In this document: positions 8,730-14,985 of the stretch, one piece after another
How the letters are laid out: the number at the start of each line of letters is the position of its first letter
Position numbering within the stretch: the first letter of the stretch is position 1
Source of the DNA: Flexistipes sinusarabici DSM 4947
GTDB taxonomy: Bacteria > Chrysiogenota > Deferribacteres > Deferribacterales > Flexistipitaceae
Direction of reading: 5' to 3'
DNA: 64,000 bases
Assembly: GCF_000218625.1 (NCBI RefSeq)
Contig: NC_015672.1
Coordinates: 1,773,451-1,837,450, forward strand
The notes under the pieces: generated by a model
The model's input: the letters and a program-made list of their open reading frames with translations, nothing else
Told to the model about the DNA's origin: nothing
Database searches by the model: none
Program-made: the position numbers and the translations under genes

Positions 8730-8951
8730 TTATAGAGCAACGACTTCCTTCACCTCAGGAATAGCTTCTTTAAGCCGCATTTCTATTCCGTGTTTCAAAG
8801 TCATAGTGCTGAAAGGACAGCTGCCACAGGCTCCTGTCAATTGCACTTTTACCACACCGTCATCACTGACGTCAATAAGCTCAACATCGCCACCGTCTGC
8901 CTGAAGAGACGGTCTCACCTTTTGGAGCACTTCTTCAACTCTTTCTTTCAT
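8730..8951 (-). CDS. NFU-domain Fe-S carrier protein
   Basis: 73 aa, a stand-alone NifU C-terminal (NFU) domain. Motifs are [15 protein letters not shown] and the cluster-binding C-x2-C in [14 protein letters not shown]. Two monomers would hold a [4Fe-4S] cluster and deliver it to target proteins. It sits 6 nt after iscU in an Fe-S assembly operon. Length and motifs are normal for this family. Confidence 0.93.
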
Positions 8952-8957
8952 AATATC

Positions 8958-9407
8958 TTAAACCTCCTGATTTGTCTCTTTATTTTTAATTTTTTCTTTT
9001 ATTTCGTCAACAATTTTCGGATCTTTACCCACTCTCTCATAATAATCTTTAAGAGCAGCTTCAATAGCTTCCTCAGCCATAACAGAACAATGGATTTTTG
9101 CCGGTGGCAGCCCTTCAAGGGCTTCAACTATAGCGTTATTGGTAAGCTCAAGAATTTCTTCCACTGTTTTCCCTTTCAAGAGCTCCGTTGCCATAGAACT
9201 CGAAGCAATCGCTGCACCACAGCCGAATGTTTTAAATTTCACATCCTCAACAACTCCATCGTCATTGATTTTGAGAAAAAGTTTCATAACATCCCCGCAA
9301 GCAGGGTTACCTACTTCACCCACTCCGCTGGCGTCCTCGATTTCACCCATATTTCTGGGATTCATAAAGTGTTCCATTACTTTTTCACTGTATGGTCCTT
9401 TTGCCAT
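8958..9407 (-). CDS. iscU: IscU/NifU-type Fe-S cluster scaffold
   Basis: 149 aa. The three scaffold cysteines are present (NPACGD near 37, TFGCGAAIASSSM near 63, KIHCSVMAEEAI near 106), with the Asp after the first. They assemble [2Fe-2S] and [4Fe-4S] clusters from iron and desulfurase-supplied sulfur. The C-terminal tail after residue 125 is lysine-rich and longer than in E. coli IscU. SD AGGAGGAAATT. It lies between the desulfurase-like gene and nfu. The upstream desulfurase-like protein lacks key residues, so the sulfur donor for this scaffold is uncertain. Confidence 0.93.
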   Translation of the reverse strand: MAKGPYSEKVMEHFMNPRNMGEIEDASGVGEVGNPACGDVMKLFLKINDDGVVEDVKFKTFGCGAAIASSSMATELLKGKTVEEILELTNNAIVEALEGLPPAKIHCSVMAEEAIEAALKDYYERVGKDPKIVDEIKEKIKNKETNQEV

Positions 9408-9419
9408 AATTTCCTCCTG

Positions 9420-10601
9420 CTATTTGTTATAATATGGTGACATTTCACAGAGTTTATTAACAATCTCCGGTGTTATCTCCAGAACTCTGTCCACCTCATC
9501 CTCAGTATTGTACTTTGACATGGAAAATGTAAGTGAACCGGCACAAATGTCATTGGGAACACCTACTGCCGTCAGTACATGAGAGGCTTCCAGCTCATCC
9601 TCGTCTTCAGCCTGGATATTTGAAGAACATGCAGACCCGCTTGCCCCGTATACATCTTTCAGCGAATACCATAAAAGCAGCGATTCACCTTCAATATACT
9701 CAATCCAGAAACTGACATGTCCGGCCAATCTGTCATTCCTGTCTCCAGTAAAGTGTATGAAGTCAAACATTTCGTCAAGGCCATTCCACAACTTTTCCTG
9801 CAATTTTTTCATTCTGGGCACATACTCACCCATTTCTTTCTTTGCAATGCGCGCCGCTTCACCCAAACCGACAATGGCCGGCACATTCTCGGAACCGCTT
9901 CGGAAACCTTTTTCCTGAAATCCGCCGTCAAAAAGAGGGTTTAATTTTACCCCATTTTTAACAAAAAGTGCTGCCGAACCCTTAGGGCCGTAAAAATTCT
10001 GGCCTGCAAGACTCAGCAGATCACACCCAAACTCGTATACATCAACCTCAGTATGACCTACTCCCGCAACGGCGTCCGTATGAAAAAGAACTTCATTTTT
10101 CCTGCAGATTTCACCCACTTTTTTCAAATCCTGTACAGTTCCGATCTCAGGGTTGGTATGCATAACCGAAACAAGTGCAGTTTCAGGAGTCACTGCTTTT
10201 TCAAGAGCATTCATGTCCACTTTGCCATTTTCATCAACTCTGATTTTTGTAATTTTATAGCCCTCGTTCATTAACTTCATGCATACATTCTGAACGGAAA
10301 AATGTTCTATTTCACTTATAACTATATGATCTTTCCCTTTTGTTTTCTCTGTATCCAAAACACCTTTTAAAGCAAGATTGTTAGACTCAGTACCACAGGA
10401 TGTAAAAATAATTTCATCATTCTCAGCACCTATGAGATCAGCCACATAACCTCTTGCTTCATCAACTGCCTCAAATGCTTCCCTGCCCAGAGGGTAAAAA
10501 TGTGCACTGGGATTTCCGTATTTTTCCGTATAAAAAGGAATCATTTTATCAACAACTCGTTTATCAGGTTTGGTTCCGGCAACATTATCCATATAAACCA
10601 T
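9420..10601 (-). CDS. NifS/IscS-family class V aminotransferase-fold protein lacking the PLP lysine
   Basis: 393 aa with clear cysteine-desulfurase architecture: YMDNVAGTKP at the N-terminus, EIEHFSVQNV, HTNPEIGTVQ, HTDAVAGVG, and the cysteine loop GASGSACSSN. The usual S-x2-H-K-x2-GPKG motif reads SLAGQNFYGPKG, so the PLP Schiff-base lysine is Asn and the preceding His is Gln. DAVQ is DAVA, and NNE is NPE. The codons were checked on the minus strand (GGC CAG AAT TTT). The start is ATG at 10601 with AAGGAGAACGATCT upstream. The protein may be inactive or have another role, although it sits directly before iscU. Confidence 0.8.
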   Translation of the reverse strand: MVYMDNVAGTKPDKRVVDKMIPFYTEKYGNPSAHFYPLGREAFEAVDEARGYVADLIGAENDEIIFTSCGTESNNLALKGVLDTEKTKGKDHIVISEIEHFSVQNVCMKLMNEGYKITKIRVDENGKVDMNALEKAVTPETALVSVMHTNPEIGTVQDLKKVGEICRKNEVLFHTDAVAGVGHTEVDVYEFGCDLLSLAGQNFYGPKGSAALFVKNGVKLNPLFDGGFQEKGFRSGSENVPAIVGLGEAARIAKKEMGEYVPRMKKLQEKLWNGLDEMFDFIHFTGDRNDRLAGHVSFWIEYIEGESLLLWYSLKDVYGASGSACSSNIQAEDEDELEASHVLTAVGVPNDICAGSLTFSMSKYNTEDEVDRVLEITPEIVNKLCEMSPYYNK

Positions 10602-10618: not shown

Positions 10619-11401
10619 TCAAAGTTTTTTTAGCTCATCTAATATCTGCTTTGTAAAAATATGCAGATAATCACCATAAACGGTTACCATACCGTTATTC
10701 TCTTTTCTGAAAACCAACCCTTCATTGGCTATAATATCTGTCAGGTTACCCGTTTTCCCGTACAAATCCTCGCCTGCAACATCTTCTGTATTACCACAAA
10801 TGTCCAATATAAGTCCTGTTGAAACAGGTAGCAACCTAAAAATAAAATTTTTTCTTACTTCATCCTTTATGTTTGTCAAATATTTATCAAAAAGAGGGGT
10901 GCCTTCTGTTGCAACATTGAACCCCAGATTAAAATCAATAACCTTACTGTTATAATCTGAGAAAGCCAAAAGGTGCCTTGTCTGGTTTATCAAATCATCA
11001 ACACCGTCTTTGCCGAAAATAGCAGCAGGCAGACTGCATACGCCCTTAATTTCATCAATATCATCACACACAGAGTTAAGAATATATTCCACCGGATTTA
11101 GAACTTTACAGATATCAGCGTCCTCAGAATAGTATCCTGCTGCATCAATAACGCTGCCGTCAAAATCACCGGCATTGCCGGCCAGACTGTCACCGCCTGG
11201 CAGAACCAGGAGAACATCCTCATCGCCAAACTTATTTAATTCATCTATTTGAGCTGAAGGAACTTCAGACTGCAATACAGGCACTTTCTCTTCATCGGCA
11301 TAAACATTAATGCTAACCTCCGGCATCTGTCCCTCTATTCCAATAATTACTTCATTTAACATCAAAGATTCCCCTGCAAAAATGCCCACTTCCATACGCA
11401 T
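10619..11401 (-). CDS. Aspartate-semialdehyde dehydrogenase-like (USG-1-like) protein, catalytic Cys apparently absent
   Basis: 260 aa, recognised only weakly. The pattern 'DEDVLLVLPGGDSLAG...VIDAAGYYSEDADICKVLNP' matches the Asd N-terminal fold where the phosphate and aspartate pocket lies. 'VCSLPAAIFGKDGVDDLINQTRHLL' and 'FNLGFNVA' resemble the Asd dimerisation domain. The GxTGxxG nucleotide motif and the catalytic N-C-S/T of real Asd are not visible. The SD AGGTG sets ATG at 11401. It ends 17 nt before the desulfurase-like start, so both are in one operon. Function unknown. Confidence 0.45.
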   Translation of the reverse strand: MRMEVGIFAGESLMLNEVIIGIEGQMPEVSINVYADEEKVPVLQSEVPSAQIDELNKFGDEDVLLVLPGGDSLAGNAGDFDGSVIDAAGYYSEDADICKVLNPVEYILNSVCDDIDEIKGVCSLPAAIFGKDGVDDLINQTRHLLAFSDYNSKVIDFNLGFNVATEGTPLFDKYLTNIKDEVRKNFIFRLLPVSTGLILDICGNTEDVAGEDLYGKTGNLTDIIANEGLVFRKENNGMVTVYGDYLHIFTKQILDELKKL

Positions 11402-11471: not shown

Positions 11472-12404
11472 TTAATTTTCTATTTTTGAATATTTTAACG
11501 TGCCGTTATCCATGGTAAATCTGAGATTCTTTACCGGTTCACGCCACCCTCCGAGATTTCTGTAAATATCACCGTTGTGCGAAATGGTAATAGCTGCGGC
11601 GTTTCCAATATCTATAATAAAAAAATCACTGAAGCTTATGGTTTTGATCAAACCACCCTCAGCTATAAAATCCAGCTGTTTTTCATTATCTATATTCACA
11701 TGAACCCAGCAGGTATCTGAAAAATCCAGTGATACATCATATTTCTTTTCAACAACTTTTTTCTCTTTATTTAATTCCTGCGTTATCTCATAAGGAGTAA
11801 TTTCATTATCCTTAGCTTTCCCGTCACTTTCTGTTGCATTTTCCAAACCTGATGACTTTTTATCTGTTTTCAGGGCTTGCTCCTTGCCGCCCTCAGTTTT
11901 TTCTTGAGAAATGTTGTCTTCCGGAAGGGCTTTATTTTTCTTCAATTCAGTTTCATTTCCTGAAGTCGTGTTACCAGTGGTAAGTTCCCCTTTGCTCTCA
12001 ATCTGCTTTACTTCCTTATCCAGAGTACCGGAAGGCACAAAAACATAAGCAAGAATCCCTCCAATAATAAGCAGGAGAAAAACAGCGGCAAATACTGGGA
12101 ATTTTCTTTTTGAATCAGCAGAAGAATAATCCACTTCCGATTCCTGAGCCTCCTGAACCTGAAAATCTTCCTTTTTGCATTCCGATTCAAAAAGACTTTT
12201 AACATCATCATATGTATATCCGAGATATTCCGCATACTTCTTCACAAAACCGTAGCAATGCACATATGAAGGGAGACTGTCAAAATCCCCGCTTTCAATA
12301 GCTTCAATTGCCGCCTTGCTTATCAGCGTTGCTTTTGATACATCCTTTATACTCTTACCCTGTTCTTTTCTTTTTTCACTGAGAAAATGACCTAAATCAC
12401 TCAT
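11472..12404 (-). CDS. RodZ-like membrane protein with N-terminal HTH and DUF4115
   Basis: 310 aa. The N-terminal HTH_25 domain (about 1-70) begins LGHFLSEKRKEQGKSIKDVS, followed by a charged linker and one TM helix (about 105-125, PVFAAVFLLLIIGGILAYVF). A low-complexity periplasmic linker rich in K, E and T follows, then a C-terminal beta domain with SDTCWVHVNIDN (DUF4115). RodZ anchors MreB in cell-shape control. No mreB is nearby. The gene overlaps the PilF-like lipoprotein gene by 8 nt, as often seen for this pair. Confidence 0.85.
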   Translation of the reverse strand: MSDLGHFLSEKRKEQGKSIKDVSKATLISKAAIEAIESGDFDSLPSYVHCYGFVKKYAEYLGYTYDDVKSLFESECKKEDFQVQEAQESEVDYSSADSKRKFPVFAAVFLLLIIGGILAYVFVPSGTLDKEVKQIESKGELTTGNTTSGNETELKKNKALPEDNISQEKTEGGKEQALKTDKKSSGLENATESDGKAKDNEITPYEITQELNKEKKVVEKKYDVSLDFSDTCWVHVNIDNEKQLDFIAEGGLIKTISFSDFFIIDIGNAAAITISHNGDIYRNLGGWREPVKNLRFTMDNGTLKYSKIEN

Positions 12405-13143
12405 AATAAAGCCCCATTTTTTTCAGATAAGAAGCAGCTGTTTTTGCTTCCTCACTGTCAGGCTGCAGTTCTATAATTTCTTCCATAACTTTTGCAGACT
12501 GCTCATATTTGTTCTGATTGTAATAATACTTGCCCAATTCAAGCTTTGCAGGGAGAAAAACAGGGTTCCTCTTTAACGCCTTTTTCAAAATATCTATCGC
12601 CTTATCATGTTCTTCCCAGCTCTTGTAAATTCTGTACATATACATATATGGAGATATGAACCGGGGGTTGATTTCCACTGCCCTCTTAAAATACTCCAGC
12701 GCCCTGTCGTAACGCCCTTTCCCGTAAAGGGAATAGCCCATGTTGTAATAAATCATGCCATGATTTGGATATCCGGGATCTTCGAGCACAATTTTCCATT
12801 GTTTTACAGCCTTTTCAACATTTCCAAGAGAAGCCAGTGTGGAAGCATATGCATTATGGTAGTCGGAATTAGAAGGATCCAGTTCAATAGCCCTCTCTAA
12901 ATATTTCTGTGCTTTCAGCAACTTGTTATGTTTCAGGTAAAAAGTGGCAATTGCATAGTGTGTTTTGGCATCGTTTGGTTTATATTTCAGTGCCTTTTCA
13001 AACTCTCTGATTGCCATATAATCCTTATCTGTATTCAGATAAGCAAGCCCCATTTTATAATGCGACTGAAAAGCATTATCATTTTTTGCCGCACAGCCCA
13101 GTATAACGAAAATCAATAATAAACTAAGCGCTATTCTTTTCAT
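12397..13143 (-). CDS. TPR lipoprotein, PilF/PilW-like
   Basis: 248 aa. The N-terminal lipoprotein signal MKRIALSLLLIFVILGCAAK has a lipobox ending at Cys 17. At least five tetratricopeptide repeats follow (for example AIREFEKALKYKPNDAKTHY, GRYDRALEYFKRAVEINPRF). Such proteins support PilQ secretin assembly or act as general outer-membrane scaffolds. It overlaps coaX by 20 nt and the RodZ-like gene by 8 nt, so it is translated from a dense operon. A pilus role is inferred from family only; no other pilus gene is present. Confidence 0.8.
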   Translation of the reverse strand: MKRIALSLLLIFVILGCAAKNDNAFQSHYKMGLAYLNTDKDYMAIREFEKALKYKPNDAKTHYAIATFYLKHNKLLKAQKYLERAIELDPSNSDYHNAYASTLASLGNVEKAVKQWKIVLEDPGYPNHGMIYYNMGYSLYGKGRYDRALEYFKRAVEINPRFISPYMYMYRIYKSWEEHDKAIDILKKALKRNPVFLPAKLELGKYYYNQNKYEQSAKVMEEIIELQPDSEEAKTAASYLKKMGLYYE

Positions 13144-13900
13144 AAATCAACCTCAGCCCGTATAGTGTAAGATTGGGTTCATATTCTTGTATATATTTTG
13201 ATTCACCAATATAAATACTTCCTAAGCCTCCCGTAGCCACAGCCTTTACCGAACTGCCTTCAAACTGTTCTTCAATAATTTTTTCTATTATGCCGTCTAT
13301 CATTGAGAGGTAACCGAAATACACTCCGGATTTCATTGATGAAGTTGTGCTGTTTCCCACAACTTTCCGGCATTTTTCTATTTCAATCTCCGGCAACTTC
13401 GCCGTTTTTGAGTGCAATGCATTTACAGAGAGTTTTATACCGGGGCTGATAACCCCTCCGATATATTCACCCTTTCTGTTCACAACATCAAAAGTCGTGG
13501 CCGTTCCAAAATCAACAACGATACAAGGCGCCTTATAATATTTAATAGCAGCAGCCGCATTCACAATTCTGTCAGCACCAATTTCCTTGGGGTTTTCAAA
13601 TTTAACAGGCACCCCCGTTTTTATACCAGGGCCAATAACTACGGGCTCAATATCAAAATATTTGCGGGCAAGTTTTGTAAAAGTGTAAACAAGCGGCGGT
13701 ACAACACTGGAAATAACCATTCCGCTCAGCTGGTCAAAGTCTATTCCCCTGTTTTTAAGAAGAAGCATAATAGTGGCAGCATACTCATCGGTTGTTCTCA
13801 TGGAATCGGTTGTTAACCTGCAATTTCCTGCAAGATTGCCCTGCTTATCAAAAATCCCGAATACTATGTTGGTGTTGCCAATATCAACGGCAAAAATCAT
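13124..13900 (-). CDS. coaX: Type III pantothenate kinase
   Basis: 258 aa. CoaX phosphorylates pantothenate with ATP, the first step of CoA synthesis. The ASKHA-fold signature is MIFAVDIGNTNIVFGIF with D5 and N9-T. Further motifs are GADRIVNAAAA, CIVVDFGTATTFD and GGVISPGIKLS, and VATGGLGSIY near the C-terminus. Length is typical. It overlaps birA by 17 nt; birA-coaX pairs are common in many bacteria. Confidence 0.95.
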   Translation of the reverse strand: MIFAVDIGNTNIVFGIFDKQGNLAGNCRLTTDSMRTTDEYAATIMLLLKNRGIDFDQLSGMVISSVVPPLVYTFTKLARKYFDIEPVVIGPGIKTGVPVKFENPKEIGADRIVNAAAAIKYYKAPCIVVDFGTATTFDVVNRKGEYIGGVISPGIKLSVNALHSKTAKLPEIEIEKCRKVVGNSTTSSMKSGVYFGYLSMIDGIIEKIIEEQFEGSSVKAVATGGLGSIYIGESKYIQEYEPNLTLYGLRLIYEKNSA

Positions 13901-14645
13901 AGCCTATGTCACCAGAGTAAATTTTTGTCAGTTTACCTGATTTTTCTGCAACAATCAAGGCACCATTTGAATCGATACCTTTTTCAAGAACTTCCTTCTT
14001 TTTATTATCGATATGAATATTGACAGGTAAGTTCAGATGAGCTGAATAATCGTACCATAATTTTTCAATATTTATTTCATCATTCATAAACCTGCTGAAA
14101 TAATCCTCGAATGTGTTCATGAATAAAGCCATAATTTTTTCCGGCTCGGCATCCTTTCCTGTTTCGTCTTTTATTGAGGAAGCCGTAGGGATAATCTTAC
14201 TAACCTTTTCTGCATTTACATTAACCCCGATGCCCAGAACAATTTTTGAAAGTTTATTCCCGTTAAATTTCGTATCAATTAAAATTCCGGCAATCTTTTT
14301 ACCCGCATATACAATATCATTCGGCCATTTTAAGTAGCACTTAAAATAAGTTCTTAAAACATCGCACATGGCAAAACCGGCTAAAATATTGAGTGGAAGT
14401 ATACGGTCACCTTCGATTCTCGGCAGAATTAAGGTAAAATATAAGTTTTCCCCTTCAAAATCAGTCCATTTACGCCCGCTTCTGCCCCTGCCTGATGTTT
14501 GCCTTGATGTTGTTATTACAGAAAATACAGGGCACTTATGTTCAAGTGCATAGGTATTGGTGGACTGCAGCGAATCAAACACCTGCAGATTTCTGCCGAA
14601 ATTTTTCGTTTTCAGAAATAAATTGTACTTATCTCTGTCAAACAT
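13884..14645 (-). CDS. birA: Biotin-[acetyl-CoA-carboxylase] ligase, without HTH domain
   Basis: 253 aa. It makes biotinyl-AMP and transfers biotin to carrier proteins. The glycine-rich motif TSGRGRSGRKW (about residue 70) and KWPNDIVYAGKKIAGILID are the catalytic BPL signatures. A short SH3-like C-terminal domain follows. No N-terminal winged helix is present, so it is the monofunctional type and not a bio-operon repressor. The start ATG at 14645 overlaps the end of the receiver-protein gene by 8 nt; the in-frame TTG at 14660 has no better SD. Confidence 0.93.
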   Translation of the reverse strand: MFDRDKYNLFLKTKNFGRNLQVFDSLQSTNTYALEHKCPVFSVITTSRQTSGRGRSGRKWTDFEGENLYFTLILPRIEGDRILPLNILAGFAMCDVLRTYFKCYLKWPNDIVYAGKKIAGILIDTKFNGNKLSKIVLGIGVNVNAEKVSKIIPTASSIKDETGKDAEPEKIMALFMNTFEDYFSRFMNDEINIEKLWYDYSAHLNLPVNIHIDNKKKEVLEKGIDSNGALIVAEKSGKLTKIYSGDIGYDFCR

Positions 14646-14985
14646 TGAGTGTTGTTTCAACTAATTTCAAAAGATTTCCGGTATCGGGAGATTTGGTAAG
14701 CATTTCAACACTTTCATAATCACCAACATTGAAATCACCGGGATTTGCGGTATATATGATAATAGGTACTTTGCTCGTTTTTCTGATTCTCTCCAGGAAT
14801 TGCACACCGTCAAGCTTAGGCATGCGCAAATCCAGTATAACGAGATCAACATCCTCTTCGCTAAAACTTATCAGAGCTTCTTCACCGTTTACGGCTGTAA
14901 TTACATTGTAATTCAGATCACAGAATTCATCCCGCATCAGCAGTCTTATATTGTCGTCATCGTCAACAATCAGTAGAGTTTTCAA
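14638..14985 (-). CDS. Single-domain response regulator (CheY-like receiver)
   Basis: 115 aa, one receiver domain and no output domain. The acidic pocket is DDDD at 8-11, the phosphoacceptor Asp lies in VILDLRMPKLDG (about 52), the switch Thr in IIYTANP (about 79) and the Lys in LTKSP (about 98). The start is TTG at 14985, set by AGGAGG 6 nt upstream. It overlaps birA. No cognate kinase lies in the window, so its pathway is unknown. Confidence 0.9.
   Translation of the reverse strand: MKTLLIVDDDDNIRLLMRDEFCDLNYNVITAVNGEEALISFSEEDVDLVILDLRMPKLDGVQFLERIRKTSKVPIIIYTANPGDFNVGDYESVEMLTKSPDTGNLLKLVETTLNV

Follow-up and report, generated by a model that had tools for sequence, protein, structure and literature searches.

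The gene at positions 9420 to 10601 of the analysed window encodes an IscS/NifS homologue without the Schiff-base lysine, and we consider it fairly likely that this protein is a non-catalytic IscS paralogue that serves as an assembly platform for IscU, its loop cysteine ligating the cluster or relaying persulfide, with the sulfur supplied from elsewhere. The window is a stretch of 64,000 nucleotides, positions 1773451-1837450 of the single 2,526,590-base contig of Flexistipes sinusarabici, a strict anaerobe whose strain MAS10T originates from Red Sea brine (PMC3236037). The relevant features are the following:

8730-8951, minus strand: nfu, 73 aa, a cluster carrier of the NifU C-terminal type (PF01106), present at 33 of 33 Deferribacterota loci
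8958-9407, minus strand: iscU, 149 aa, above the TIGR03419 cut-off, the sole NifU_N protein of the genome
9420-10601, minus strand: lysine-less IscS/NifS homologue, 393 aa, ORF intact, start ATG at 10601
10619-11401, minus strand: P260, 260 aa, overlapping the start of the lysine-less iscS, present in most Deferribacterota operons
11472-12404, minus strand: rodZ-like HTH/membrane protein, a conserved upstream operon member
12397-13143, minus strand: TPR lipoprotein-like gene of the upstream operon, as read from the sequence
13124-13900, minus strand: coaX (type III pantothenate kinase) of the upstream operon, as read from the sequence
13884-14660, minus strand: birA, the start of the conserved gene string, as read from the sequence

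The gene and its product

The ATG of the lysine-less iscS lies 8 nt downstream of the Shine-Dalgarno sequence AAGGAG. Translation from one of two further in-frame start codons, at 10619 and 10622, would lengthen the protein by 6-7 residues, and the stop codon of the upstream gene overlaps an in-frame ATG of the lysine-less iscS in the sequence TGATG. The product has the class-V aminotransferase fold (Pfam PF00266, E 9.5e-75), and its AlphaFold model, obtained with 49 relatives as input, reaches a pLDDT of 91.6, with residues 324-337 (the Cys loop and the insertion that follows it) as the only poorly defined part. The structures closest to the model are those of NFS1, E. coli IscS, and A. fulgidus IscS (TM 0.90-0.94), with matches to 1p3w, 3lvl, and 8rme. 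The protein scores below the NCBIfam equivalog cut-offs (TIGR03402, 439.6 vs. 530.75 bits; TIGR02006, 370.5 vs. 643.2), which is weak evidence, because the canonical paralogue is also under those cut-offs. The strong match of its fold to "cysteine desulfurase" models makes it an annotation trap.

Residue numbers in comparisons are those of E. coli IscS, and the PLP and substrate roles of the compared positions are presumed from what is established for that enzyme. The Schiff-base lysine motif reads SLAGQNFYGPKG. The replacements of lysine by asparagine and of histidine by glutamine, proposed in the initial annotation, were borne out: Asn202 (codon 9996-9998) occupies the position of Lys206, and His205 is replaced by Gln. 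The sequences DAVA (with A179) and NPE (with P151) and the Cys loop GASGSACSS (Cys325, codon 9627-9629) are also as first described, Gln183 being replaced by Ala and Asn155 by Pro. To these changes our comparison adds the loss of the substrate-binding Arg354, which is Thr in the window protein. A lysine at another position was looked for, and the residue has not moved; the sole nearby lysine, that of GPKG, gives way to Arg in 19 of the 28 orthologues.

The position of Lys206 is occupied by Asn in all 28 tabulated Deferribacterota orthologues, and the dN/dS of the gene is 0.057 in a comparison of two Flexistipes species, close to the value for canonical IscS. While the loss of catalytic residues is what an ordinary decaying duplicate or a sequencing error would bring about, this explanation, to which we give practically no weight, is refuted by the invariance of Asn, the low dN/dS, and the fixed synteny. 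The earlier view of the gene as intact, with a good ribosome-binding site and no decay, thus holds.

A wider residue table comprised 79 lysine-less and 37 active sequences (L156, which has the HK motif, was counted as active). Lys206 and Arg354 are lost in 79 of 79 lysine-less sequences, His205 in all except three, and Gln183 in all except two, while Cys328, His104, Asp180, Thr76, and Glu103 are kept in 79 of 79; the lysine, histidine, and glutamine are present in each of the 37 active sequences. This pattern leads us to infer that the lysine-less IscS has no desulfurase activity. The invariance of His104, Asp180, and Thr76 may reflect non-covalent binding of PLP or of another ligand, and the A. 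fulgidus IscS structure is depicted with PLP in a figure of PMC9769115. Nevertheless, a PLP enzyme with lysine-independent chemistry, or with non-covalently held PLP and slow desulfuration, seems to us improbable. The residue that replaces Lys206 is Asn in Deferribacterota, mostly Gln in Chloroflexota, Desulfobacterota, and Nitrospirota, Val, Ala, or Ser in Endomicrobia, and Met, Pro, or Leu in other subgroups, and this variation argues against its being a new catalytic base. The Arg for the substrate carboxylate and the O3' Gln have gone together with the lysine, and A. fulgidus IscS2 is reported to be devoid of desulfurase activity (PMC7585200).

The residues Glu309, Gly310, Glu311, Ser384, and Pro385, which belong to the IscU contacts of IscS listed in PMC2854127, are retained in the lysine-less IscS, which supports its predicted binding to IscU. 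The IscU of the window has all equivalents of Cys37, Asp39, Cys63, His105, and Cys106.

Two features distinguish the Cys loops of lysine-less proteins. In Deferribacterota, a 7-residue acidic insertion is located C-terminally to the loop. Outside this phylum (e.g., in L133), Arg or Lys occupies position 331 and Lys position 334, where active enzymes have Gly, Asp, or Glu and Glu or Asp, respectively; judged from the aligned loops, this charge change is diagnostic of lysine-less loci outside Deferribacterota.

Operon and Fe-S genes of Deferribacterota

The lysine-less iscS does not head its operon, as had been proposed initially, since birA, coaX, the TPR gene, the rodZ-like gene, and the P260 gene precede it on the same strand. 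The order birA-coaX-(TPR)-rodZ-like-P260-iscS*-iscU-nfu (iscS* being the lysine-less gene) is conserved across Deferribacterota, with P260 and the TPR gene absent from some members, and iscU and nfu lie downstream of the lysine-less iscS at 33 of 33 loci with enough sequence. Neither TusA nor DsrE2 genes were found as neighbours in the Deferribacterota operon.

No Pfam or NCBIfam profile matches P260 above cut-off. The structure predicted for it (pLDDT 80.5) is similar to aspartate-semialdehyde dehydrogenase (2hjs as the best match, TM 0.73, 13% identity), although P260 is about 75 residues shorter, with a predicted truncated fold, and there is no Cys among its invariant columns. Judging by the model, P260 is possibly a second pseudoenzyme adjoining the lysine-less IscS.

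The genome of F. sinusarabici encodes exactly one IscU, beside the lysine-less iscS, and no SufB/D was found in it. A search for a second, complete desulfurase, suggested at the outset, revealed a canonical IscS at a separate locus adjoining an Rrf2 regulator; a NifS-type gene adjoins thiI. Three TusA genes are present, none of them linked to the lysine-less iscS, and DsrE2 was not found in the genome; a TusA/DsrE2 relay in F. sinusarabici thus has no local support.

Almost all Deferribacterota that carry the lysine-less gene also have a canonical IscS. The G004 and G005 genomes, considered as candidates for the absence of an active desulfurase, were rejected as such after a second search, in which L216 and L217 proved to have the HK motif. 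Likewise, G029 and G034, where the lysine-less gene is missing, were rejected as cases of loss, since contig edges or gaps explain the absence. In genus g11, represented by two bins (G031 and G032, 78% and 88% complete), the P260-iscS-iscU-nfu segment is cleanly gone after rodZ, with unrelated genes in its place; elsewhere in the genome, these bins have a canonical IscR-NifS-IscU set. This swap, seen in a single genus, is what one would expect were the segment responsible for ISC-type assembly.

Lysine-less relatives in other phyla

A scan of 84,980 genomes, followed by motif tabulation and neighbourhood mapping, showed lysine-less relatives in Chloroflexota, Desulfobacterota, Nitrospirota, Elusimicrobiota, Omnitrophota, Aminicenantes, Actinomycetota, and Margulis-/Saganbacteria. 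The degenerate NQFYGP pattern was found in at least 12 of 400 genomes of one phylum, with zero control matches. The question raised by the initial annotation, whether the lysine-less gene stands beside iscU in other genomes too, was thereby answered positively: in addition to the Deferribacterota loci, iscU is downstream of it at 37 of 42 loci of other phyla. All cluster residues are kept in 53 of 53 partner IscUs, and SufB/D is absent from 11 of 20 genomes with the lysine-less IscS.

At these 42 loci, TusA is encoded at 27 and DsrE2 at 21, compared with none of 32 canonical iscS control loci for either gene; the linkage is an association and not a proof, because the lineages sampled for the control loci differ in part. 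In Endomicrobia (L105, L114, L117, L119, and L138), the iscS*-iscU pair is followed by genes of flavodiiron protein, rubredoxin, and/or rubrerythrin, which suggests an oxygen-protection context.

The co-occurrence of canonical IscS in Deferribacterota, G004 and G005 included, and the canonical iscS-iscU pairs that adjoin lysine-less ones in L107, L134, and L136 would be compatible with a regulatory or heterodimer subunit, which pairs with canonical IscS or competes for IscU to tune sulfur flux while its own cysteine stays idle; canonical IscS could then feed IscU directly. We regard this as unlikely. The loop cysteine is present in 79 of 79 sequences, in a loop that is strongly conserved over its whole length, beyond the need of a regulator, and a dedicated IscU usually adjoins the lysine-less iscS. 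Moreover, among metagenome bins, G054 and G070 contain the lysine-less protein with no other desulfurase found, and G053 contains in addition one distant class-V transaminase-like match only.

In the best phylogenetic tree, A. fulgidus IscS2 is placed outside the bacterial lysine-less group. AU tests rejected neither a bacterial-only lysine-less clade (p 0.435) nor a clade including A. fulgidus (p-AU 0.27). The placement in this tree of an active enzyme of known structure, 9wep (with HK), inside the bacterial lysine-less group hints that the lysine was lost more than once or was regained.

Comparison with known systems

Lysine-less IscS proteins have been described earlier in two archaea, Archaeoglobus fulgidus (IscS2) and Methanosarcina acetivorans (IscS1) (PMC7585200). 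Structures of the former (PDB 4EB5, 4EB7, 4HVK, and the D199K mutant 4R5F) include crystals with IscU, and its cysteine is reported to be a ligand to the IscU cluster (PMC7585200, PMC9769115). A. fulgidus IscS2 and the window protein share the IscS fold, a replaced Schiff-base lysine, and the retained Cys loop and IscU interface. The changes in the archaeal protein are Lys to Asp, Gln183 to Ala, His205 to Asn, and Arg354 to Leu, and in our residue table the window protein has similarly lost Lys, Gln183, and Arg354 and kept the cysteine. The pairing with IscU would also be common to both, predicted here from the gene linkage at all 33 loci and the conserved interface. In contrast to the window protein, A. 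fulgidus IscS2 has Asp and not Asn at the lysine position, keeps Asn155 and Ser203, and has no acidic Cys-loop insertion.

M. acetivorans IscS1, which we compared by its published description, is reported to be an IscS homologue without the catalytic lysine and with its own IscU1 (PMC7585200). However, that archaeon has three IscSU pairs, of which IscS1-IscU1 is one, while here the lysine-less protein accompanies the only IscU. E. coli IscS and human NFS1 are similar to the window protein in fold (TM 0.91-0.94, 38-40% identity), Cys loop, and IscU docking surface, but they are active and have Lys206, His205, Gln183, and Arg354, all four of which are missing from the window protein. The minimal Fe-S systems MIS and SMS resemble the present one in their two-component IscS-IscU layout with no full ISC operon. 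MIS is described with a working cysteine desulfurase, whereas the partner of IscU is predicted here to be dead; in SMS, sulfide can serve as the sulfur source (PMC12192291). In an E. coli iscS mutant, IscU can also be fed by sulfide (PMC13015791).

Proposed function and its significance

The function that we propose is that of an assembly platform. The lysine-less IscS would have lost PLP/cysteine chemistry and retained the fold of a dimer, the cysteine of the mobile loop, and the surface to which IscU docks, and with this surface it would bind the IscU of the same operon. By analogy with A. fulgidus IscS2, the loop cysteine may enter the IscU assembly site as a ligand for the nascent [2Fe-2S] cluster; alternatively, it may hand on persulfide obtained from another donor. 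Sulfur would be provided in Deferribacterota by the canonical IscS at its separate locus, perhaps with TusA as intermediary, or by sulfide, and in other phyla probably by sulfide or by the TusA/DsrE2 carriers encoded alongside. Nfu would then receive the finished cluster. Of the functions initially suggested, a persulfide relay or scaffold with IscU as a partner is well supported by conservation and synteny, but a new chemistry is disfavoured by the variable replacing residue and the loss of the Arg and the O3' Gln.

In the literature collection that was searched, we found no report of lysine-less IscS in bacteria. The bacterial clade, its association with TusA/DsrE2, the 7-residue acidic Cys-loop insertion of Deferribacterota, and the occurrence of a lysine-less IscS alongside the sole IscU in a genome that lacks SufB/D are new. 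In one bacterial phylum such a protein is almost universally fixed, and it is found again in many anaerobic phyla, frequently together with TusA/DsrE2. Because the only IscU adjoins a dead IscS and the relatives span so many anaerobic phyla, these cells probably build Fe-S clusters from sulfur delivered otherwise. We put forward more tentatively, as a doubtful generalization, that this is a widespread bacterial ISC variant in which IscU sits on a dead platform and is fed by TusA/DsrE2 persulfide or sulfide, independently of its own cysteine desulfurase, possibly with no active desulfurase in the cell in the case of G053, G054, and G070. With the lysine-less proteins it can be tested whether what IscU essentially needs from IscS is chemistry (the making of persulfide) or architecture (ligand and platform), and whether anaerobes make Fe-S clusters from sulfide or carrier persulfide.
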